A stretch of 64,000 nucleotides of DNA from Draconibacterium aestuarii. Lineage in GTDB: Bacteria > Bacteroidota > Bacteroidia > Bacteroidales > Prolixibacteraceae. Location of the stretch: contig JAPOHD010000066.1 in assembly GCA_026671195.1 (NCBI GenBank), positions 62,001 through 126,000 on the forward strand. The letters are read 5' to 3'. This document shows, piece by piece, positions 15,562 to 45,739 of the stretch. The number at the start of each line of letters is the position of its first letter. Positions within the stretch are counted from its first letter, which is position 1. Position numbers and translations under genes: made by a program. The notes below the pieces were generated by a model. That model made no database searches. It had not been told where the DNA came from and worked only from the letters and a program-made list of their open reading frames with translations.

Positions 15562-17067
15562 TTACTCGTAACCCTTATTTTGAGAATATAATCCCTCTTT
15601 AACATCCATTTGCTCTTGAGGGATTGGATAAATTATATGATCTGCATTGATTGATTTGCGCATCTGATCAGCTACGTCTTCAACCGGAATCCAGGCATTC
15701 ATTACGTCAAGTACTTTTCCTGTGCGTACCAAATCGTGCCAGCGTAAACCTTCTCCCAGAAATTCTTTACGTCGTTCTTCCAAAAGATCGTCTAATGTTG
15801 CATTAGAAAGAGGTTCGATTCCAACACGAGCTCTAACATCGTTAATAATTTTATCAACATCGGCCTGAGAGCCTGGAGCACCTTGCAGGATACATTCTGC
15901 TTTCATTAACAGAACATCGGTGAATCGGAGAATTGGAAAATTGATACCGAAATCAAAACGGTCGGCACCCCAGGTTGCCGGATCGGGACGTGAGAATTTT
16001 ATGGTAACCGGATCTTCTACATACTGACCATTACTTTCGTCCACATAACCCATTTGAACATTAAATGCAAAGCGGGCATCGTTTATGGTATCGTATGAGT
16101 TGATAAGATCAAATGATACATCTTTGGTTTCAAGACCGATGGCATATGGATAACCAACAGAACGCCAATATGCAGAACCTGCCAACTCTCCGGGATATGC
16201 ACAACCCACACCAAGGCCACCTTTTTGATACTGGATATCAAAAACAATATCAGAGTTGTTTTCATTGAGCAGATCGAATGTGGCTGCATAATCATCGAGC
16301 ATATCAAAAGGTCCGCCAATTACCTCGTTTAACAAACTTAGAGCCTGGGTATAATCATTTGTTTCCAAACAAGGTCCATCAGTATGAAGAACAGGACCAG
16401 AGCGGGTTAAATAAACCCTGGCAAGAATACCTTTAGCTGTGTATGAAGTTGCACGGCCAATATTATCGCCGGTGTACGATGTAGGCAATAATGAAGCTGC
16501 ATCCTGTAAATCTGAAATAATCAGATCGTATACTTCCGATACCGGATTTCTTCCTATTTCTAATGCTTCAGTTGGCGTAACCAGATGATCGATAACCGGT
16601 ACAGGTCCAAAATACTTAAGCAAATCGAAATAGAACAGAGCCCTTAAAAATTTGGCTTCACCTTCAAATTGATTACGTTTTGTGGCATCAGGAACCAAAT
16701 CTTCTGAAATGTTGTCTAACACAGTATTGGCACGCATAATGCCTGTGAAGTTTGTATTCCATGCTTCTTTCATGTATTCGTTTGTGGCAAGGGTAAGGGC
16801 AAAATTATTTACCGGTTCGTGGGCACGAACCCCCATTGATCCAACTCCGTAAATATTATCGGAACGAACATCAGATAAATGGAATTGTCGTTCAGGATAT
16901 GAACTTAATGACTTATAAACGCCATTGATTGCCTGCTCAAAACCTTTTTCACTGGTGAAAAATCCGTCTGAACTGATGGCTGAAATTGGCACCTGATTTA
17001 ATTCGTCTTCACAGGCGGTTAAACCTACTATGAAGAATGCTAAAAGGATAATTATATTTTTTTTCAT
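15562..17067 (-). CDS. SusD/RagB-family glycan-binding lipoprotein (PUL 1)
   Basis: A 501-residue protein with lipobox GLTAC (Cys19). It has the SusD fold: N-terminal TPR-like helices with FFTSEKGFEQAINGVYKSL, the FLRALFYFDLLKYFGPVPVI segment shared by nearly all RagB/SusD proteins, and a C-terminal RagB region with FPILRFTDVLLMKAE and LLEERRKEFLGEGLRWHDLVR. It sits on the outer leaflet as the lid of the SusC transporter and captures the oligosaccharide. Gene order is susC then susD with a 19-bp gap. The paired SusC has an STN domain, so this complex probably both imports and senses its ligand. Confidence 0.96.
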   Translation of the reverse strand: MKKNIIILLAFFIVGLTACEDELNQVPISAISSDGFFTSEKGFEQAINGVYKSLSSYPERQFHLSDVRSDNIYGVGSMGVRAHEPVNNFALTLATNEYMKEAWNTNFTGIMRANTVLDNISEDLVPDATKRNQFEGEAKFLRALFYFDLLKYFGPVPVIDHLVTPTEALEIGRNPVSEVYDLIISDLQDAASLLPTSYTGDNIGRATSYTAKGILARVYLTRSGPVLHTDGPCLETNDYTQALSLLNEVIGGPFDMLDDYAATFDLLNENNSDIVFDIQYQKGGLGVGCAYPGELAGSAYWRSVGYPYAIGLETKDVSFDLINSYDTINDARFAFNVQMGYVDESNGQYVEDPVTIKFSRPDPATWGADRFDFGINFPILRFTDVLLMKAECILQGAPGSQADVDKIINDVRARVGIEPLSNATLDDLLEERRKEFLGEGLRWHDLVRTGKVLDVMNAWIPVEDVADQMRKSINADHIIYPIPQEQMDVKEGLYSQNKGYE

Positions 17068-17086: not shown

Positions 17087-20000
17087 TTAAAAAGTAATGT
17101 TTGCTCCAAAAATCATTGATTTTGCCAATGGGGCACCACCGTAGTCATCACCACTGGTATTTACAGCTTCAGGATTGAACCCACCGTAGTAATTGTCGTT
17201 ACCAAACCAGTTTTCAGCAGTGACATAAATGCGTACTCCGCTAACTACGTTGCTTTTGATGTGTTGTCCCAAATCGTAACCAAGGGTAATATTTCTTACT
17301 CTCCAATAATCATTAGAGTACATCCAGTCTGTGTTCTTAATTCGACCAAAACTTGAATTCACTTTTCCTTTCAATCCATCACCCGGATCTTCCGGAGATC
17401 TCCAACGATCGGCCCAAAGTCCGATTGCCTGGTCTAACCATCCCATACCGGTTCTGTCCATAGCCCTTCCAAAAGTTGAGTAGAGTGTTCCTCCGTGTTG
17501 TCCCTGAACTAAAATATTCAGATCGAAACCTTTATAACGGAAGTTATTGGTTATACCCCAAACGTAGTCTGGATTTGGATGTCCCAAAATCTGACGGTCA
17601 TCCGGAGAAATAACTCCATCACCATTGTAATCAACATATTTTGGATCTCCTTCCACCTGGTTCCCATACAATGCCGCTCCGGCATCAATGTCAGCCTGAG
17701 TTAAAATTCCATCCTGTTTTACTACATTAATGCTGTACATGGGTTCACCTACGGTAAGAATGTTGTGTTGAATATCGTATGCTCCACCTAAAATTGGTGT
17801 ATTATTCGGTCCTAACTGACGTACTTCGTTGGCGTTAAACCCTAAGTTGAAACTGGTTGTCCACTCAAATGCTCCGGAAAAGTTTCTGCTATTTAATTCA
17901 AATTCCCAACCGTGATTAAATACTTCTCCAATGTTTGTAAGAGCTGTGGTAAAACCTGTTGCTGCAGGTACCGGAATACTTAGTAAAAGGTTGGTATTTG
18001 TTTTTGTATAGTATTCAATAGAACCATAAACACGATTGCTGTATATTCCAAAATCCAGTCCATAGTTTAAGGTTTCCGATTCTTCCCATCCTAAATCTCC
18101 GTTTGGATAATTTTTTGATGCCTGACCAACCACCTTTGAACCGTTAAATGAATAATCAGCTGCCTGTAGCAAAGCGATATGAGTATAATCGCCAATACTG
18201 TTGTTTCCTGCTTTACCCCAACTAAAGCGCGCTTTTAAGTTGCTTAACCAGTCAACATCAGCTAAAAAGCTTTCTTCAGAAACACGCCATCCGAACGACG
18301 CTGCCGGGAAAATCCCCCATTTAGTATCGTTTCCAAAACGTGAAGAACCATCGCGACGGATACTGGCAGTTAACAAATAACGCTCCATGTAACTGTAGTT
18401 TACCCTTCCGAAATAAGACAGCAACACACTTTGAGATTCGTATGTATCGGTTGCAGTCGCTTTAATGTCATTGGCATCATTTAAAGTGGTGATATAATCG
18501 GTACCAAAACCACCTGTTGTTCCAATTCTAAAATTTTCCAGTTTATTGAAATTATAAGAGAAACCTGCTACTGCCGAAACATTGTGGGTTTCATTATAAA
18601 CTCTATTGTACGCAAGTGTATTTTCGTTTACAAACGTTTGACGGGTAAAACCACTATAACTGCCGCTGGCAACACGTGCTGAAGGCGTTTTCCCATTAAC
18701 AAATGCTGGTCTGTAATATTTGTATTTCTGATCGGTATGATCAATGTTTGCTGATGATTTAAATTTTAACCCATCAATAATTTCATACTCACCAAAGATG
18801 GTTGCCAGTGTTCTGAAAATTTTGGTTTCTCCAATTGTATTTTCTAAAACGGCAACCGGACTGTTACGCGAGTTTCCATAAGTTAACTGTCCGTTCTCGC
18901 CAACGTTAATATTTAAGCTAACTTCTTCTTCAGTTATTGGAGGCATTCCAACAGCAACGTGTAAAATACGGTCTTTCCCTTCTACTCCCGGATCCTGGCC
19001 AATTGAATATGAAGGTGCTATGTTGATTCCTGCGGTAATTTTTTCGTTTGGTGTTACTTCAATATTTGTACGCATCGAGAAACGCTCGTAATCAACATTG
19101 TTAAAATAGGCTTGCTGATTAAGGTAATCACCCGATACAAAATATTTAATTCCATCGTTTCCACCATTGGCCGAAAGCTGGTAGTTTTGCACAATACCTT
19201 TTCTGAAAACTTCATCTTGCCAGTCAACCGATTCATATTTTCCCAGGTCACTTTTATACCAATCCGCATCAGGAATTTGGTTGCGGTCGAAACTGCCAAT
19301 GTTGGCAATGCGTGTTGCATAATCATCTGAAGCCGATCGGTTCTGGTCTCCCGGATCTTTTGATATATAATTAACATCCATATATTCGATGGCACGGTCG
19401 ATCCACTCATCAGTATTTAATACATCCATTTTACGGTTGGGTTCATTCCATCCGCTGTACATGTTAAAGTTGATGGTTGGTTTCCCTGTTTTTCCTTTTT
19501 TAGTTTGAATGAGTACAACACCGTTTGAAGCTCTCGAACCATAGATTGCAGCTGCTGCCGCATCTTTTAAAACCTGGATTGATTCAATGTCGTTGGGATT
19601 GATGTTATCTAAAGGATTACCAGATGAGAAACCTCCCGATGAATTTTGTGTTGACATTTCCAGCGGAAATCCATCGATAACATACAATGGCTCATTGTTT
19701 GCTGTAATCGATCCTGTTCCACGAATTTGGATACTCATCCCTTTACCGGGCATTCCACTGGTTTGTTTTACGCGAACACCAGCCATTTGACCTACTAAAG
19801 CCTGATCGAGGCGTTGAACAGGACGTTCGTTTAACTGGTCTGCGCTGTAGTGTGCAATTGCACCGGTAACCGATGCTTTCTTTTGTGTACCGTAACCAAC
19901 TGCTATTACTTCTTCAATACCAATTGCATCAGGTTCAAGAGTAATATTAATTTCGGTTTTACCTGCAACAGCAATTTCCTGTGGTTTCATTCCTACAAAA

Positions 20001-20539
20001 GAGAAAATCAATACGGCATCTTCAGGAGTGTTGTTTAAAGCATAACTACCATCACCTGTTGTTACAGTACCCTGAGTTGTTCCTTTTATAATAACGGTTA
20101 CTCCCGGAAGTGGAAAACCTTCGCTATCGATTACTTTTCCTTTAATTGGGTTTTGCTGAACTCCATTTCTATTTTCCTGTGCTTCGCTGATTGGAGTAAT
20201 AGCAATGTATCTGTCAATTACTTTGTACGAATAATCGCTTCCTTCAAGTAAATTAGACAGAATGTTTTCAATACTCTGCTCATTGAATTTTACATTTACC
20301 TCTTTATCTAATATTGTTTCATTAGATTTTATTATAAAACGGTAATCTGTAACTTTTTCCAACTGTTCGATAACTTCTCCAAATGAAGATTTCATTTCGA
20401 GAGAAATTTTTTGAGTTTGCCCGTACGAGCTTGCATAAACATGTATGCATAAGAACATTACCAAAAACGCAGTTATTTTCATAATCCGCAAAAGTTTTTT
20501 AATTGGTGCCCATAGTGGGACACAACCTGTTTTTTTCAT
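17087..20539 (-). CDS. SusC/RagA TonB-dependent transporter with STN signalling domain (PUL 1)
   Basis: A 1150-residue outer-membrane protein. The leader (to about residue 41, ending ASSYGQ) is followed by an STN domain (about 45-115; MKSSFGEVIEQLEK and NILSNLLEGSDYSYKV), a carboxypeptidase-regulatory beta domain (about 132-205; VIDSEGFPLPGVTVIIKGT), a plug (about 215-345; RIRGTGS-like IQIRGTGSITANNEPLYVIDG) and the 22-strand barrel. It imports oligosaccharides using TonB energy. The STN domain is the hallmark of transducers that signal to a FecR anti-sigma, and the FecR and ECF sigma genes lie directly upstream, so ligand import likely induces the locus. Its 200-bp leader is overlapped by a proposed antisense sRNA. 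Confidence 0.96.
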   Translation of the reverse strand: MKKTGCVPLWAPIKKLLRIMKITAFLVMFLCIHVYASSYGQTQKISLEMKSSFGEVIEQLEKVTDYRFIIKSNETILDKEVNVKFNEQSIENILSNLLEGSDYSYKVIDRYIAITPISEAQENRNGVQQNPIKGKVIDSEGFPLPGVTVIIKGTTQGTVTTGDGSYALNNTPEDAVLIFSFVGMKPQEIAVAGKTEINITLEPDAIGIEEVIAVGYGTQKKASVTGAIAHYSADQLNERPVQRLDQALVGQMAGVRVKQTSGMPGKGMSIQIRGTGSITANNEPLYVIDGFPLEMSTQNSSGGFSSGNPLDNINPNDIESIQVLKDAAAAAIYGSRASNGVVLIQTKKGKTGKPTINFNMYSGWNEPNRKMDVLNTDEWIDRAIEYMDVNYISKDPGDQNRSASDDYATRIANIGSFDRNQIPDADWYKSDLGKYESVDWQDEVFRKGIVQNYQLSANGGNDGIKYFVSGDYLNQQAYFNNVDYERFSMRTNIEVTPNEKITAGINIAPSYSIGQDPGVEGKDRILHVAVGMPPITEEEVSLNINVGENGQLTYGNSRNSPVAVLENTIGETKIFRTLATIFGEYEIIDGLKFKSSANIDHTDQKYKYYRPAFVNGKTPSARVASGSYSGFTRQTFVNENTLAYNRVYNETHNVSAVAGFSYNFNKLENFRIGTTGGFGTDYITTLNDANDIKATATDTYESQSVLLSYFGRVNYSYMERYLLTASIRRDGSSRFGNDTKWGIFPAASFGWRVSEESFLADVDWLSNLKARFSWGKAGNNSIGDYTHIALLQAADYSFNGSKVVGQASKNYPNGDLGWEESETLNYGLDFGIYSNRVYGSIEYYTKTNTNLLLSIPVPAATGFTTALTNIGEVFNHGWEFELNSRNFSGAFEWTTSFNLGFNANEVRQLGPNNTPILGGAYDIQHNILTVGEPMYSINVVKQDGILTQADIDAGAALYGNQVEGDPKYVDYNGDGVISPDDRQILGHPNPDYVWGITNNFRYKGFDLNILVQGQHGGTLYSTFGRAMDRTGMGWLDQAIGLWADRWRSPEDPGDGLKGKVNSSFGRIKNTDWMYSNDYWRVRNITLGYDLGQHIKSNVVSGVRIYVTAENWFGNDNYYGGFNPEAVNTSGDDYGGAPLAKSMIFGANITF

Positions 20540-20546
20540 AAATTTG

Positions 20547-20678
20547 AAATGTTTTGATTGATGAATAAATAGCCTGTTGTCAGCAGGCTTATGTTTATCG
20601 CCGTTCGGATGGAGGTTTAGAGATCCATCCAGCGTAACAGACCGGAGATATTGTCAGTATTTTCGGTCTGCTTTTTTT
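20547..20678 (+). ncRNA. Candidate cis-antisense sRNA over the susC leader
   Basis: The 199-bp gap between susC and the anti-sigma gene carries, on the plus strand, a perfect -7 element TAAATTTG (20539-20546), then three stems. They are AGCCTG/CAGGCT (20571-20576 with 20584-20589), GGATGGA/TCCATCC (20607-20613 with 20624-20630), and a terminator stem CAGACCG/CGGTCTG (20638-20644 with 20664-20670) followed by C and eight T residues. No plus-strand gene lies within reach upstream, so the terminator most simply ends a roughly 125-nt RNA antisense to the susC 5' leader. Cis-encoded antisense RNAs that repress PULs have been described in Bacteroides. No TTG -33 element is at the right spacing. The transcript itself is inferred. 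Confidence 0.5.
20638..20678 (+). terminator. Intrinsic terminator, plus strand, between susC and fecR
   Basis: A 7-bp stem CAGACCG/CGGTCTG with a 19-nt loop, followed by CTTTTTTTT on the plus strand. On the minus strand the sequence after the stem is not U-rich, so termination works only for plus-strand RNA, whereas both flanking genes run on the minus strand. Confidence 0.65.
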
Positions 20679-20738
20679 TAGGTGATTGTAGTTTTTTCCA
20701 TTTTGTTTTAGTTAAAGTTTGCAATCTAGTTAATTAGT

Positions 20739-21722
20739 TTATTTCCAGTATATTAATGTCGGCTGATCGGTGCGATACTCAATTCTGTATTCGAGCGAAC
20801 TAGTCAGCTTAAATACTTCCAGTATTTGGTCAATAGGTTTGTTTTTTAATATTGTTCCGTTATATAGATCTTCTTTAAGTTCAGTGTTTTCAAAAATTAT
20901 TTCCACATTGTACCACCGTTCAATTTTAAGTGCAATATTCTGAAGGCTTTCATCTCTGAAAGTTACCAATCCTTCTTTCCAGGATGTAAAAAGCCCGGTA
21001 TTCACATCGCTAAGTACAATTTTATTTTCGCTTTTAATATATTGTGCATTCTGGCCGGGAATCAGAAGGCTTAGTTCATTTCCTGCCTGATCGAATACGC
21101 CCAAACTACCTTCAACGAGGGTTGTATTTATTTCCCCTTCTTTAGGGTAAGCCTGAATATTAAAGGAAGTTCCATAAACCTTTAGCGAAATATCGCCTGG
21201 GGTATGAACTATAAAAGGATGTTTTTTATCGGAATATACATCGAAAAAGGCTTCACCTTCCAGTTTAACCAAACGTTTGCCGGAGCTAAAGTCTGCATTG
21301 TAAAATAACTTACTTCCCGAGTTGAGATGTACAGCAGTTCCGTCTGGCAAAGTTACTTTCGACATCTGGCCGGGAGGAACTTCAATTTCGGTTTGTGAAA
21401 AATAAACTGAGTCTGAAGATTCTTTTTGAATGAGATATTCAACAAATAGCCCGAGTGCAAAAATTACGATTGCAACCGCAGCATATTTTTGAACGGATAG
21501 GGTTAATATTCTTGTTTTTTTCGAAAATGAATCTTTTTTATTTAAGCTTTTCCACAGCACCTCCGAATCATCTTGCGATGATGAAGTTAAAGCCCATGCC
21601 TGCTTGTAGCGAATAAATGTTTTTCGATTTTCAGCAGATTCGTCTATCCATTCGAAAAGCGCTTTAATCTCAGCTTCTGAGGCTTCCTGAGCCAGATATC
21701 TGTACATGTAAGTTTGATCCAT
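20739..21722 (-). CDS. FecR-family anti-sigma factor
   Basis: Start chosen at the ATG at 21722 (MDQTYMYRYL, 327 residues), with GAGAG upstream. The frame extends further only to a GTG at 21749. A cytoplasmic N-terminal anti-sigma region (EIKALFEWIDESAENRKTF) is followed by one membrane segment (about residues 80-98, YAAVAIVIFALGLFVEYLI). The periplasmic FecR domain has VPPGQMSKVTLPDGT, VHLNSGSKL, VKLEGEAFFDV and YGTSFNIQAYP, then a C-terminal DUF4974 domain (FRDESLQNIALKIERWY). It holds the adjacent ECF sigma inactive until the STN domain of the PUL 1 SusC transmits ligand binding. The sigma gene is 98-125 bp upstream, in the same direction. Confidence 0.95.
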   Translation of the reverse strand: MDQTYMYRYLAQEASEAEIKALFEWIDESAENRKTFIRYKQAWALTSSSQDDSEVLWKSLNKKDSFSKKTRILTLSVQKYAAVAIVIFALGLFVEYLIQKESSDSVYFSQTEIEVPPGQMSKVTLPDGTAVHLNSGSKLFYNADFSSGKRLVKLEGEAFFDVYSDKKHPFIVHTPGDISLKVYGTSFNIQAYPKEGEINTTLVEGSLGVFDQAGNELSLLIPGQNAQYIKSENKIVLSDVNTGLFTSWKEGLVTFRDESLQNIALKIERWYNVEIIFENTELKEDLYNGTILKNKPIDQILEVFKLTSSLEYRIEYRTDQPTLIYWK

Positions 21723-21847
21723 TTTATTGCTCTCTGTAATTAAGTACACGTTGATTTATTCGAACCCCATATCGGGATGATATTTTTTTTGAAAAAATAA
21801 TTTATAGCGTATTTTTTTTTGATCTCACTCAAAATTCTGAATCAACA

Positions 21848-22459
21848 TCAGTTCAAATACTGAACAATTAGTTGCACCAAAATTGCAGGCAAGTACTCCG
21901 AAAGATTCTTTTTTAAAGCTTTAATTGCACGAGTCATGTTAGCTTCCACCGATTTTATATTGATGCCCAGATCTTCGGCAATTTCTTTGTTCATTTTCCC
22001 TTCAAAACGTTTTTTAATAAAAACCTCCCGGCATTTTTCAGGAAGATTGCTGATTGACTTCTGTATCAATTCTTCCAATTCAATAAATTCGAGGGAGTTA
22101 AAATCGAATGATTCCAGCACTTCTGCATTTAATAGCTGTTCTTTTTCGTGTAAAGCGTGGTCCGTATATTTTTCCTCAACTGCTTGATGACGAATAAAAT
22201 TAAGGCAGTTTGATTTTGCGAAAGTGTATAAAAATGAATTTATCCCGCTGGGTTTTTCAATTTTATTACGATTCAGCCATAAATTTATAAATGCTTCCTG
22301 AGTAATGTTTTTGGCATCATCGTGATCTGAAATAAATTGATCACAAAATCCGATGATCTGATTGAATTTTGACTTGAATATGTGTTCAAATGCCAGTTCG
22401 TCACCGTTTTTAAAGCGGGAGAACAAGAAATCATTTAAACTGTTATTATCAAGTGTCAT
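21848..22459 (-). CDS. ECF RNA polymerase sigma factor, Bacteroidetes FecI-like
   Basis: A 203-residue sigma-70-family protein. Region 2 spans about residues 10-80 (FSRFKNGDELAFEHIF, DDAKNITQEAFINLWLNR, FLYTFAKSNCLNFIR). Region 4 spans about 130-185 (LPEKCREVFIKKRFEGKMNKEIAEDLG, then INIKSVEANMTRAIKALK, the helix-turn-helix for -35 recognition). It should direct polymerase to the PUL 1 susC promoter when released by the FecR protein encoded next to it. Gene order sigma, anti-sigma, susC, susD is the standard arrangement. Its regulon might also include the lyase genes upstream, but nothing in the sequence shows that. Confidence 0.95.
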   Translation of the reverse strand: MTLDNNSLNDFLFSRFKNGDELAFEHIFKSKFNQIIGFCDQFISDHDDAKNITQEAFINLWLNRNKIEKPSGINSFLYTFAKSNCLNFIRHQAVEEKYTDHALHEKEQLLNAEVLESFDFNSLEFIELEELIQKSISNLPEKCREVFIKKRFEGKMNKEIAEDLGINIKSVEANMTRAIKALKKNLSEYLPAILVQLIVQYLN

Positions 22460-22569: not shown

Positions 22570-24513
22570 TCAGTAAAAGGCTGTTTTTCCGGAATATACC
22601 GTGTTCGAACCTGCAATTTTTACAAGATAAATTCCATTAATTCTATTCTGTGTTTCAAGTTGCACCTCTTGTTGTCCAACTTCAAGCAATACTTCTGAGC
22701 GGGCAATCAGCTTACCATCAATCGAGTAAAGGGCAAACTGTAACTGTTGAGTTTTATTTGAAAATAAAGTAAAGTTAAAACCATTTCTGTTTTGGTTGAG
22801 CGAAATATTTACCACATTAAAGTCCTCCTCCTGAAGAAAATATTTGGGCGCAGATGTAACGATTTCTATTTTGCCAACCCCTGAATAAGCTTTAACCGAT
22901 AAATTTACGGTATTGGTATTTTCAAGTAAAAAATCGTAGGGAAGCTGGTCGTTCCAAAAATCACAATCCGTAGGATTCGAAATCTCATTGTCGGTTTCGG
23001 TGCACGAACCTGAGTAAATACAGCCCGAAACGCAGGCAAAACCATGACCTTTGAATTTATCGGTAGTAATGGGCAGATTTACACTTTCGAAATAGCAATT
23101 TTCAAATTTTGCATGTGCTCCGTTCCGAACGGCAAAACCATAATCAGTAATATTTTCGAGGTAATTGTTGAAGTAGTGCATTTGTCCAAAACGTAAACTA
23201 GGGTTTCTGCCATCGGTATTTGCAAACCAATTGTGATGAAAAGTAACTTGCAGATTTTGATCCTGTTCGCCGTTGTTATCACTATGTCCCACCAACACAG
23301 TTTTCATGAGGTCGTGAAAGTAGCACCAAGAAACGGTTACATTGTGCGAACCTTTTTTTATATCGTTTATATCGAGCAAACCGTCGTAGGTGTCGTAGCC
23401 AATTTCCGGCCCCACTTTACGATGAAATTCGCAATGATCGATCCACACATGATGACATTCGTCGATGGTTAGATCGTCGTTGGGATAAAACACTTCATGG
23501 ATTTTTAAATTCCTGACAATTACGTTAGAGTAATCGCGTATATTCAGCGATATATTTTGTAGTTCGGCAAAACCCGAAGATGATTGTGAGTCACCTAAAA
23601 ATGAAATGTCTTTTCCTCTTTTTATGGTAATAACTGTAGAGGTTTCAGCTTCAATTTTCCCTTTGATGATAACTGTTTCTGCCGTGTAGTTGTCTTCGCG
23701 TCTGGCTCCCCAAGCAATAAGCTGAGCAAGGCTTTCAATGACCGTTACCTTGCCATTTTTACCTCCGGTTGTTGTTTCAACACCTTCGCTGCTAACAGTG
23801 GCATAGCCAATGATCGAGAACTCGGGTTCCGGAAGATTTAATTCAATTTCAAGGAAATGGGCTACCAGTGTTTTATTCTCGTTTAAGATAAAATTTAAGG
23901 TGTCCGATTCTGAGGTACAATCACCCGTCCAGTTTTTAAAAATGCTGTTAAAATCGGCTTTGGCTATTAAACTTATTTCTTCTCCTTCAAAAAGTAAATC
24001 GTTATCAGGAAGTTGAAGGATTTGCCCGTTTCCATCTATTGATAAATTCAAGGAAAAAGTTTGTGCCTGTTCTCCCGTAATATCAAATAAATCGATATTT
24101 GGGCCACCTTCGCTTCCAACAGAAGTACATTTTAAATAATTAACTCCTGCATTAAATGAGGAATTTATTGAAAGGGTATCCCAGCTTGTCCAGTTTCCGG
24201 TGGTTTCAAAATCAAGCGATTCGGTTATTACAACATCATTCAACTCAATCTTCATTGGTCGGGGAGAGGAATTTCCATTGGCAAAGCGGATGGTTATTTT
24301 TTGTTGCCCGGCCGCAGCCATTCCAACTTTTAAATTGGCAAAACCACCAGATTCGTTATCGAAATTAATATACGAATCACCGGAATAACCAATGTTTTTA
24401 GCTTCGGTTACAGCCTTATACAAAGCAGCTTTTTCTGCTTCGTAAATGGTTGCTTTCGACGAAAAAGCAAGGAATAAACTAGCCAGTATGAGTAGATGTT
24501 GAAGTAGTTTCAC
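22570..24513 (-). CDS. PL1 pectate lyase with N-terminal CBM and T9SS sorting domain
   Basis: A 647-residue secreted lyase that starts at a GTG (24511-24513) reading MKLLQHLLIL..., a good signal peptide. Domains: a CBM6/CBM35-like beta-sandwich (about 22-147; YEAEKAAL, GYSGDSYINFDNESGGF), a bacterial-repeat module (about 150-225; FKNWTGDCTSESD), PL1 parallel beta-helix (about 235-545; VWIDHCEF near residue 353, HNVTVSWCYFHD, VTFHHNWFANTDGRNPSLRFG with the catalytic Arg region), and a T9SS type-A C-terminal domain (about 565-647, ending in GIYLVKIAGSNTVYSGK). It cleaves de-esterified homogalacturonan by calcium-dependent beta-elimination at the cell surface or outside the cell. The next lyase gene is 16 bp away. 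Confidence 0.92.
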   Translation of the reverse strand: MKLLQHLLILASLFLAFSSKATIYEAEKAALYKAVTEAKNIGYSGDSYINFDNESGGFANLKVGMAAAGQQKITIRFANGNSSPRPMKIELNDVVITESLDFETTGNWTSWDTLSINSSFNAGVNYLKCTSVGSEGGPNIDLFDITGEQAQTFSLNLSIDGNGQILQLPDNDLLFEGEEISLIAKADFNSIFKNWTGDCTSESDTLNFILNENKTLVAHFLEIELNLPEPEFSIIGYATVSSEGVETTTGGKNGKVTVIESLAQLIAWGARREDNYTAETVIIKGKIEAETSTVITIKRGKDISFLGDSQSSSGFAELQNISLNIRDYSNVIVRNLKIHEVFYPNDDLTIDECHHVWIDHCEFHRKVGPEIGYDTYDGLLDINDIKKGSHNVTVSWCYFHDLMKTVLVGHSDNNGEQDQNLQVTFHHNWFANTDGRNPSLRFGQMHYFNNYLENITDYGFAVRNGAHAKFENCYFESVNLPITTDKFKGHGFACVSGCIYSGSCTETDNEISNPTDCDFWNDQLPYDFLLENTNTVNLSVKAYSGVGKIEIVTSAPKYFLQEEDFNVVNISLNQNRNGFNFTLFSNKTQQLQFALYSIDGKLIARSEVLLEVGQQEVQLETQNRINGIYLVKIAGSNTVYSGKTAFY

Positions 24514-42436: not shown

Positions 42437-45400
42437 TTAGAAAGTTACATTAACACCAAAAGTGAAGGAACGGCTACGTGGGTACGACGAATAATCGAGA
42501 CCCGGAGTTAACGCGCCGTAGCTGCTGCTTCTTGAAGTACTTACTTCCGGATCGTATCCCGAATAGTTGGTAAATAACCACAGATTATATCCAGTTGCAT
42601 ATACACGAAAATCAGAAATACCTACTTTCGAAGTTAAGCTTAAAGGTAATGTGTATCCAACAGTTAAAGTACTTAGACGCAGGAAGGAACCGTCTTCAAT
42701 TGCCCAGTCGCTAACTACGGCTGTGGCTTGCCCAAACGAAGTATTACCACTCCAAATTGTTTTGTCTTTGTTTAATTCAGCTAACTGATTTAAATCGGTA
42801 ATTACACCGCCTGCAGTTCCGGTTATTGTTCCGTCAACATCAATGTAAGTAAAACGTTTGTCTGAACTCATTGAACTCAACATATTTCCATAACGGGTTC
42901 TGTAAAGTTGGTTGTAATCAATTTTACCAGAGTTATATACATCGTTGCCAATTGACCAGTTGAAAAGAACAGACGCATCGAAATTTTTATAGGTTGCATC
43001 GAAACTAAAACCTCCAATGGCATCAGGAAGTGCACTTCCAATAACTTTACGGTCAAGACTATTGATTTCGCCGTCGTTGTTCAAATCTTTTAGTTTCATG
43101 TAGCCCGGGCGAATATCGCTAACGCCAAGTGTATTTTTAGCATTTGGAACACCATCTTTTAATGTATAGGTTTCGGACACTTCATCGTAAGCCGTAAAAT
43201 CGCTGGTTGTATACATTCCATCGTTTACATATCCGTAAATTAGACCGACGGTTTGTCCTACAGCAAGATAGTAATCATCACGGTCTTTTAAGTCGGTACT
43301 TGCCCAGTTCGACTGGAAGAATCGTTCGTCGGTACCATCGAGTTCATCAATATTTGCTTTATTTATACCGAAGTTGAAATTAGTTCTCAACGTAAAATCA
43401 GTAGCTGAAACCAATGTTGCATTCAGGTTCAACTCGAAACCTTTATTTGAAGTGCTACCAATGTTGTTCCACTGTGTACTAAATCCTGAAATTGGAGAAA
43501 TTGCTGAAGCCAATAGCAGGTCTTTGGTAGTGTTTTTATACAAATCAATGTTACCGCTAATTCTACCAGTAAACATCGTAAAGTCCAATCCTAAGTTTCG
43601 GTTGATAGTAGTCTCCCAAACCAGATCCGGATTATATAAAGTTGATCCTTCCGGTGAATAATATGCATTTTCGGTGTTGGTGCCCATACCCGGACCTCTT
43701 GTAGTGCTTGCGTCGAATAGAAACTTGGTGGCATTCGACGAAATACGGTCGTTACCAGTTGTACCGTAACTAACACGAAGTTTTAATTCGTCAATTTTAT
43801 CGGCACTACTCATAAATGCTTCTTCGTTTATTTTCCAACCTAAAGCAACTGCAGGGAAAATACCCACCCTGTTTTCTTTCGAGAATTTGCTCGACATATC
43901 AGAACGTACAGTGGCTGTTACCAAATATTTTTCTCTGAACTGATAATTTGCTCTTCCAAAGAAAGACAACCTGTTTTGTTCCGTAGATTCTGATGTCCCA
44001 TAAGAGTTTAACTCACCTAGCGCCATATTTGCAAACATTTCATCGGGTTGCATCGACTCTCTGAATTTGATTGATCTAACCGCACTCGATTTTCCTCCGT
44101 TTGAGTAAGTTTCATGTCCCAATAAAATATCCAGATTGTGTTCGCCAAGATCTTCGAATATATACTGAGCTGTATTTAACCAACGTAAGGAGTGGTTGTC
44201 GTAATTATTAATGGTACCCAGAGGTAAACTGCTACCTTCTTGTTGTGCGGTACTTGTTAACGGACCGTAATACCTTAAACGTTCGTCGAAGGTCTGGCTA
44301 TTTGAAATTGTCGTTTTTAAGGTCAGACTTTTCATCGGATTCCATGTCAATCCCCCCTGTAATACGTAGTTTTTTGTATTACGTTGTCTCCAGTCTTGTT
44401 CAGCCAGCTCCAACGGATTAATCATACTCAACAAAAATGACTGATAATCGTCGTCGCTGTTGATGCTGTTTAAGTCAATATCCAACTCGTCGGCAATACC
44501 ATTTACCGGACGGGCAGTAATAATGTTTTTAACGCGTAATTGCGAACTTCCCGATGTTCCGGCTCCGTCAACCTGAGTATCGGTAATTCTTGCCGAGGTT
44601 TCCAGTATCAACGATTTTGCAATTTCGTGGTTTAATTTAAAGTTAATGGCATTTCGTTTGTAACCATTCCCAACCATGATGCCTTCGTCGTTATTACTTG
44701 ATAAACTCAGACTAATTTTTGTTTTTGCAGTACCTCCGCTAACACTAATGTTATGCATTTGCGAAACAGTAGGATCGCCAAAAAGTTCTTCCTGCCAGTC
44801 ATTTGGTCTTTTGTAATTATACAACTCAAGATCATCGTATTTACCGTAGTATTTTTCAAAGTTTTTTAAATCCGATTCTGAACGTAAAATGGCATATTCA
44901 TACTGCATCATTACAAATTCATAAGGATCAAGAACATCGTATTTACGTTCTTGTGGCAATGTTTTTATTTGAACAAAACCATTGTAACTTACCTTTGTTT
45001 TTCCTTCAGTAGGGCTTTTGGTTGTAATCAGTATTACTCCGTTTGCAGCTTGCGCACCATAAATAGCCGTAGCTGCAGCATCTTTTAAAACGTTAATGCT
45101 GGAAATGTCAGTAGGAGGGACGTCGCGGATACTGCTAACAATAAAACCATCAACCACATAAAGTGGTGAATTGTCTTGTGTAACAGAACCACCCCCACGA
45201 ACACGGATAACTACCTCTGCATCGGGCGAACCATCAGTTGTAATGATGTTTACCCCGGCCAAACGACCTTTGATTGCTTCTGCTGCGTTGGCAACCGGAA
45301 TTTTTTTCAAAGTCTCGCTCGACATAGTAGCCATCGAACCCGTTAAATCGCGACGACGCGCAGTACCATATCCAACGGCAACTACTTCATCTAAGCCAAT

Positions 45401-45739
45401 CGAAGCACTTTCGAGTTGAACATTAATTTCTGTTCTTCCATTTACTGGAATCTCTTGAGGAGTATATCCAATAAAAGAATACGACAGAACTGCATCGGTA
45501 CCCGAAACGTCGATTTGATAAGAACCGTCAATCTGGGTAATTGTACCTTTTGTGGTTCCTTTAATAATAACGTTAACTCCGGGAAGTTCTTCTCCGGATT
45601 TTTGGTCGATTACTTTACCTTTCACTGTCTGTGAATACGAAGTAAAGGCAAAAATAAACTGAGCCAAAACCAAAACAACTACGAATCGAAGTGCATTTCG
45701 CAGTCGTAGTTTTTGATTTTTTCTTTTTTTGTTTACCAT
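42437..45739 (-). CDS. SusC/RagA TonB-dependent transporter, no STN domain (PUL 2)
   Basis: A 1100-residue outer-membrane protein. The signal peptide ends near residue 37. A carboxypeptidase-regulatory domain (about 38-112; VIDQKSGEELPGVNVIIKGT) is followed by a TonB-box-like region (DEVVAVGYGTARRRDLTGS), the plug (about 125-240; IRVRGGGSVTQDNSPLYVVDG) and the barrel. It lacks the STN domain of the PUL 1 SusC, consistent with control by the hybrid two-component system encoded upstream rather than by a sigma/anti-sigma pair. It imports pectin oligosaccharides with SusD. The 334-bp upstream gap contains phased TTCCC repeats. Confidence 0.96.
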   Translation of the reverse strand: MVNKKRKNQKLRLRNALRFVVVLVLAQFIFAFTSYSQTVKGKVIDQKSGEELPGVNVIIKGTTKGTITQIDGSYQIDVSGTDAVLSYSFIGYTPQEIPVNGRTEINVQLESASIGLDEVVAVGYGTARRRDLTGSMATMSSETLKKIPVANAAEAIKGRLAGVNIITTDGSPDAEVVIRVRGGGSVTQDNSPLYVVDGFIVSSIRDVPPTDISSINVLKDAAATAIYGAQAANGVILITTKSPTEGKTKVSYNGFVQIKTLPQERKYDVLDPYEFVMMQYEYAILRSESDLKNFEKYYGKYDDLELYNYKRPNDWQEELFGDPTVSQMHNISVSGGTAKTKISLSLSSNNDEGIMVGNGYKRNAINFKLNHEIAKSLILETSARITDTQVDGAGTSGSSQLRVKNIITARPVNGIADELDIDLNSINSDDDYQSFLLSMINPLELAEQDWRQRNTKNYVLQGGLTWNPMKSLTLKTTISNSQTFDERLRYYGPLTSTAQQEGSSLPLGTINNYDNHSLRWLNTAQYIFEDLGEHNLDILLGHETYSNGGKSSAVRSIKFRESMQPDEMFANMALGELNSYGTSESTEQNRLSFFGRANYQFREKYLVTATVRSDMSSKFSKENRVGIFPAVALGWKINEEAFMSSADKIDELKLRVSYGTTGNDRISSNATKFLFDASTTRGPGMGTNTENAYYSPEGSTLYNPDLVWETTINRNLGLDFTMFTGRISGNIDLYKNTTKDLLLASAISPISGFSTQWNNIGSTSNKGFELNLNATLVSATDFTLRTNFNFGINKANIDELDGTDERFFQSNWASTDLKDRDDYYLAVGQTVGLIYGYVNDGMYTTSDFTAYDEVSETYTLKDGVPNAKNTLGVSDIRPGYMKLKDLNNDGEINSLDRKVIGSALPDAIGGFSFDATYKNFDASVLFNWSIGNDVYNSGKIDYNQLYRTRYGNMLSSMSSDKRFTYIDVDGTITGTAGGVITDLNQLAELNKDKTIWSGNTSFGQATAVVSDWAIEDGSFLRLSTLTVGYTLPLSLTSKVGISDFRVYATGYNLWLFTNYSGYDPEVSTSRSSSYGALTPGLDYSSYPRSRSFTFGVNVTF

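Follow-up and report, generated by a model that had tools for sequence, protein, structure and literature searches.

The window is a 64,000-nucleotide stretch of the Draconibacterium aestuarii genome, drawn from a 6.37 Mb assembly, and contains a pectin-type locus in which genes for susD, susC, a FecR anti-sigma factor, an ECF-type sigma factor and a pectate lyase succeed one another along the DNA (Table 1). The feature of interest occupies the gap between FecR and susC, at the edge of which the susC start codon appears on the plus strand as CAT at 20537-20539.

Table 1. Genes and sequence features at the FecR-susC gap and its surroundings
Feature	Position	Strand	Description	Basis
susD	15562-17067	minus		Pfam
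susC	17087-20539	minus	1150 aa, TonB-dependent receptor, weak STN match; presumed target	Pfam
FecR-susC gap	20540-20738		both neighbours on minus strand	Pfam
FecR anti-sigma factor	20739-21749	minus		Pfam
ECF-type sigma factor	21848-22459	minus		Pfam
Pectate lyase gene	22570-24513			
Sigma-A -7 box TAAATTTG, putative antisense promoter	20539-20546	plus	perfect TAnnTTTG; first T opposite A of susC ATG	
Predicted transcription start (+1, G)	20551	plus		spacing from box, F. johnsoniae numbering (T-12 ... G-5)
Predicted cis-antisense RNA, ~128 nt	20551-20678	plus	complementary to susC leader up to sense -12	
Stem 1	20559-20600 (inner stem 20571-20589)	plus		fold
Stem 2	20602-20634	plus		fold
Intrinsic terminator	20638-20679	plus	15-pair stem 20638-20670, T x8 at 20672-20679	
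Apical loop UU-GUCA-G	20651-20657	plus	case of recurrent UU-N2-4-G loop	

The original prediction had placed here, in a gap with minus-strand genes on both sides, a perfect plus-strand TAnnTTTG box coincident with the susC start codon, two stable stems and an eight-T terminator working for plus-strand RNA only, and all of these elements were recovered. FecR and susC are both on the minus strand by Pfam, box and start codon have one base in common (20539), and the terminator stem is reduced on the minus strand to 9 pairs with an A-run replacing the T-run. The plus strand between 20553 and 20678 has a folding energy of -50.1 kcal/mol (z -6.79), a value that none of 200 shuffles equalled; the minus strand between 20530 and 20710 also beats its own shuffles, at a weaker z of -5.2, as is expected of the complement of a structured strand. 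Terminator-like sites between 17000 and 23000 numbered 7 against 4.9 in shuffles (sd 2.0), which is not a clear excess, and the terminator in the gap has much the longest stem among the seven. Since TAnnTTTG occurs just 31 times per strand in the 64 kb (about 0.0005 per base), its position on the susC start codon is unlikely to be due to chance. Of the earlier proposal of an RNA of about 125 nt antisense to the susC leader, the complementarity stands, with a predicted length of about 128 nt, whereas the proposed start at 20553 was corrected to 20551 because the F. johnsoniae box numbering was applied. The coding frame found within the predicted RNA was a single 34-codon TTG frame at 20577. At gathering score, no Rfam family matched the window, and relaxing E yielded only a chance-level match beside the gap; 20 of the loci surveyed below likewise had no match to a known RNA family.

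A FecR_C profile search of the same genome, from which the best 30 of 38 matches were taken (leaving out at least one further FecR, C45:11374), yielded a usable FecR-susC gap at 25 of the 30. Script calls identified a terminator in the antisense direction in 22 of these 25 gaps and in the sense direction in 4, the hairpin called at one locus (L017) not being the best one by eye, and CATAnnTTTG lay exactly on the start codon in 17 and CATAnnTTT in 24. The sole usable gap in this genome lacking both CATAnnTTT and an antisense terminator call was L032 (C67, about 300.8 kb). In 88 control tandem gene pairs from the same genome (gaps of 60-300 nt) there were 4 antisense and 13 sense terminators, with CATAnnTTTG in 1 and CATAnnTTT in 3, the combined unit not being observed, and among 213 ORF starts these motifs were present at 1 and 6, respectively. 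A further 11 susC genes, chosen by a missing N-terminal STN match irrespective of their FecR neighbours, had no CATAnnTTTG, CATAnnTTT in two of them (at one of the candidate starts) and one weak terminator, the box-terminator unit being absent as a whole; this set includes the second susC of the window (42437-45739), upstream of which no terminator-like site was found.

Four draws (own genome, genus, order and phylum) of high-scoring FecR_C matches of each search, rather than a random sample, gave 177 loci, from which 146 FecR-susC gaps were kept after dropping 31 loci (9 lacked a start candidate, 15 had a gap shorter than 40 or longer than 500 nt and 7 lacked susC). Antisense-direction terminators were called in 114 of the 146 gaps, against 11 in the sense direction and approximately 6.7 in shuffles, and were distributed as 22/25 in the own genome, 36/44 in the genus, 25/35 in the order, 28/35 in the same class and 3/7 in the rest of the phylum. 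CATAnnTTTG was on the start codon in 78 of 146 (17/25, 29/44, 19/35, 13/35 and 0/7 in the same sequence), and is thus absent from the seven most distant gaps. There was no called antisense terminator in 32 gaps, several of which have a hairpin with a short T run, and CATAnnTTT was missing in 32. The two features occur together: CATAnnTTT was present in 101 and absent in 13 of the gaps with a terminator, and present in 13 and absent in 19 of those without (Fisher p 9e-8, kinship not removed). Across 100 gaps, the predicted antisense RNA had a median length of 88 (range 67-228). The unit therefore recurs at most of the FecR-susC gaps surveyed, and the element originally proposed as one example in a distant genus is real there but not single, belonging instead to a large set. 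Seven FecR-susC pairs (L033, L128, L129, L139, L146, L323 and L327) are separated by only 6-14 nt, which is too short for the unit, and these may therefore be natural controls without an antisense RNA. A sense-strand motif, GCCTATG, was observed between FecR and the hairpin in 34 of the 146 gaps (L009, L020, L028, L102, L314 and others), including 29 terminator-bearing gaps, whereas a single shuffle gave none; the ECF promoter of susC may include this motif, although when sought as such in the window gap it was not found.

A scan of GTDB genomes for the box plus hairpin returned at least 119 stretches, 80 of which were listed and checked, and because hairpins of this kind had served to define the pattern, the result speaks to specificity and not to frequency. 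All 80 listed matches bear the names of Bacteroidota, and two of them (L177 and L219) seem to represent a single contig present in two MAGs. An STN-type susC starting at the CAT, with FecR upstream, was found in 69 of the 80, and the other 11 had an STN-type susC or a FecR, one only, several of them truncated at the edge of the locus. Seven further genomes taken from the scan records provided 47 usable gaps from 60 FecR loci, and are not a neutral sample because each was reached through its own copy of the pattern. Antisense terminators and CATAnnTTTG were found, respectively, in 14/21 and 8/21 gaps of Bacteroides congonensis, 5/5 and 4/5 of Labilibaculum, 5/5 and 1/5 of Pedobacter, 3/3 and 2/3 of Aquimarina, 2/2 and 1/2 of Marivirga, 3/5 and 1/5 of Chitinophaga, 1/5 and 1/5 of Tannerella forsythia, and 0/1 and 0/1 for one further, unassigned gap. 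The lower rate of CATAnnTTTG in these named genomes perhaps arises in part from the start-codon model, which was made on the genome of the window.

The start-codon box is likely a promoter, as judged from the letters downstream of it. Among 114 boxed gaps, 60 have a G at the predicted +1, whereas at the runner-up among positions 10-31 the share of G is 25%, and a pyrimidine-purine step led into the predicted +1 in 58 of 114, the commonest of positions 10-31 (next 38). The -33 TTTG element was absent both from the window gap and from the profile of the 114 gaps, and the idea that it is hidden within susC codons was rejected, as TTG/TTTG counts upstream of the 78 boxes were without a peak. In Flavobacterium johnsoniae, the -33 element is described as having escaped identification or being far less apparent (excerpts of PMC7366714 and PMC6847099). 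The missing -33, which had been named as the weak point of the original prediction, is indeed missing but is no weakness, since its absence family-wide and its scant visibility in F. johnsoniae indicate that it is not a strict requirement outside Bacteroides. Of the cis-antisense RNAs of B. thetaiotaomicron, 52% are reported to have the canonical promoter (excerpt of PMC7366714).

Near-copies of the window leader were found in three relatives (G008, G350 and G004), where the same three-stem fold has z between -6.0 and -7.0. DNA identity over the antisense region was 92%, 79% and 77%, respectively, in each case above that of the FecR, ECF and SusC coding DNA (71, 77 and 84% for G008; 64, 67 and 59% for G350; 63, 66 and 60% for G004, the SusC figures for the latter two covering the N-terminal 479 residues only). 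This conservation, together with the recurrence of the unit, supports the prediction of an antisense RNA candidate. In the alignments of the four near-copies meant for pair counting (A1 and A2), stem 2 was visibly misaligned. A fourth genome, G007 (L052 / L003), differs in its partner genes: relative to window positions 17087-22459, its SusC is 75% identical, its FecR 34% and its ECF at most 39%, and its leader differs from that of the window, yet has both box and antisense terminator. Here the regulatory unit of sigma factor, anti-sigma factor and leader appears, from these identities, to have been exchanged over a SusC 75% identical to that of the window. Leaders kept in the three near-copies and differing in G007 suggest an RNA that follows its sigma and anti-sigma genes, the cases being few.

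The apical loop of the terminator was compared across the 146 hairpins called in 193 gaps (survey and named genomes combined). On the antisense strand, a UU-N2-4-G loop closed by the stem ranked first among 64 combinations of this type and was present in 50 of the 146 hairpins, against 5.2 in a null that permuted base pairs and loop letters; the corresponding sense-strand figures were 13 and 2.0. The window loop, GAUA-UU-GUCA-G-UAUU (window copy L011), fits this form. A stricter form, RUGUU-N3-5-GCAY, was found in 30 hairpins antisense and 15 sense (null 0.2 and 0.1), and more than half of the hairpins have neither motif. As such a motif could serve on either of two complementary RNAs, it suggests a loop-loop contact between antisense and sense RNA, and a protein-binding site is also possible. 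The U-turn (YUNR) rule was considered as the basis of the loop and rejected, because the 27 of 45 motif loops that fit it are near the half expected and do not constitute a clear enrichment. Two groups of longer antisense terminator hairpins (L138, L149 and L152; L127, L131 and L144) seemingly have internal or apical letters in common, two members of the first group having letters like GCGNNAACTTCGAG, unlike the UU-N2-4-G loop, and are perhaps other subfamilies.

Box, +1 signature, stems, terminator, recurrence and conservation are all properties of the DNA as read. Probably, and with reasonable confidence, they mark a cis-antisense RNA gene of the sigma/anti-sigma/susC unit that would damp susC through its leader, by the following steps of transcription, pairing and repression that we infer. 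A housekeeping-type promoter, its -7 box overlapping the susC start codon, would start a plus-strand RNA at 20551, and the resulting transcript of about 128 nt would end at the terminator near 20678 and pair with the susC leader over the stretch between the terminator and a point 12 nt short of the ATG. As long as the ECF sigma factor is bound by FecR, leaky susC mRNA would be kept silent by the antisense RNA, the pairing blocking ribosome entry and/or exposing the duplex to RNase; once the sigma factor is released, susC transcription would outrun the antisense RNA.

The unit may instead be real but act by transcriptional interference, the start-codon promoter blocking or colliding with the susC polymerase and the terminator mainly shielding fecR from readthrough. 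This could occur because polymerase initiating at the susC start codon would head towards polymerase arriving from the susC promoter, and the terminator lies before fecR in every case by layout. Interference alone, however, needs neither conserved stems, nor a leader that outdoes coding DNA in conservation, nor a recurrent loop, and it is considered unlikely as the full account.

In another reading, the hairpins act within the susC mRNA, as a 5' stabiliser or as a leader that senses a ligand or a protein, with plus-strand transcription a by-product. The hairpin is followed by a poor T run in some gaps (L274 and L287), 15 hairpins carry the strict loop motif in the sense orientation, and in 29 of the gaps with the sense GCCTATG this motif precedes a called hairpin by 11-46 nt, which would place the hairpin inside the mRNA. 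Against this, box and +1 signature both read in the antisense direction, as do the T runs. When hairpins were picked blind to strand and T run, a strong one was obtained in 126 of the 144 gaps of up to 350 nt, and at least five Ts in eight followed it in the antisense direction in 99 of the 126 and in the sense direction in 9, against a background of 22.8% of 8-base windows. This reading is therefore judged improbable. Fold-energy asymmetry was tried as a proof of the working strand and discarded: the antisense strand was more stable in 94 of 112 untied cases, but hairpins taken the same way from shuffles gave 55 of 60 untied, identifying the asymmetry as a selection artefact. A strand-neutral fold test found the antisense strand better in 112/143 real and 105/143 shuffled gaps, with a mean difference of -2.9 in real against -1.5 in shuffled gaps (p 9e-6), a small excess. 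The strand argument rests instead on the T-run test.

It is very unlikely that the box is a susC translation start context and no promoter. The box abuts the start codon, and A-rich leaders are used in Bacteroidota translation, with A favoured at -3, -6, -12 and -13 (excerpt of PMC6847099), but the boxed susC genes of the window's genome have A at -3 in 5/24 and at -12 in 8/24, against 121 and 126 of the 213 ORF starts, with A at -6 kept, and the box is found at just 1 of those 213 ordinary starts. Accidental hairpins and an accidental box in an AT-rich gap, where T runs are as common as the background rate above implies, are scarcely credible given the fold z of -6.8, the conservation in three relatives and the recurrence relative to shuffles and genome controls.

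A broader proposal is put forward tentatively, as plausible rather than expected: that in much of Bacteroidota the switch made up of ECF sigma factor, FecR and STN-type receptor has the antisense RNA as a further constant component, with its promoter locked on the receptor start codon and its body over the leader, with the recurrent UU-N2-4-G terminator loop as the first RNA-RNA touch or a protein site (in its strict form on the sense RNA in some loci), and travelling with the sigma/anti-sigma genes rather than the receptor. If true, models of glycan uptake in Bacteroidota built on sigma and anti-sigma factors omit a layer of RNA control at the majority of these loci. The signature of start-codon box and antisense hairpin would give candidate lists in many Bacteroidota genomes, predicts the antisense 5' end with single-base precision (opposite sense position -12) and links antisense RNAs to the FecR/ECF class of susC genes.

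DonS and the PUL-associated cis-antisense RNAs of Bacteroides are reportedly the subject of Cao 2016. The FopS sRNAs of B. thetaiotaomicron are likewise small RNAs repressing susC-type genes near the start codon, but pair with distant targets through a common unpaired 5' seed (excerpt of PMC11697453), whereas pairing of the window RNA would be perfect and local and its 5' part is predicted to be structured. Antisense pairs of the hok/Sok type with YUNR loops (excerpt of PMC6562991) are similar in having complementary hairpins on both RNAs, the loops of which could start pairing, but YUNR is not clearly enriched here (27/45) and the window locus is no toxin system. In Bacteroides, susC expression is lowered by DonS-like RNAs encoded divergently to the gene (excerpt of PMC7366714), and in B. 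thetaiotaomicron 32 PUL antisense RNAs are annotated, with both negative and positive correlations with susC (Ryan 2024, excerpt of PMC10994844); the same excerpt counts one validated example among the PUL antisense RNAs of Bacteroides and calls for functional work on the class. The original prediction had described such Bacteroides RNAs as lying between the anti-sigma gene and susC, a statement not found in the accessible text of PMC7366714 and PMC10994844; in Bacteroides congonensis the unit does sit between FecR and susC. Many antisense RNAs of F. psychrophilum are listed in supplementary tables (of PMC9723704, itself consulted as an excerpt), and these and the contents of Cao 2016 aside, the literature search returned no report of such RNAs outside Bacteroides. 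The start-codon box, +1 signature and loop motif are unmentioned in the accessible text of PMC7366714 and PMC10994844, and what is new here is the widening of the DonS kind from Bacteroides to other Bacteroidota families together with a sequence signature, namely a promoter fixed at the start codon and a terminator loop, UU-N2-4-G, that recurs between loci. The window element differs from DonS-like RNAs in coming from Prolixibacteraceae, in its pectin-type locus and in its predicted three-stem RNA. It resembles them in being divergent to a susC homologue and over its leader, in having by its sequence its own terminator and a sigma-A-type promoter, in a predicted length of 128 nt at the upper edge of the 78-128 nt reported (in the sources as excerpted), and in the presence of the same unit in Bacteroides congonensis, and is most likely a cis-antisense RNA of the DonS kind.
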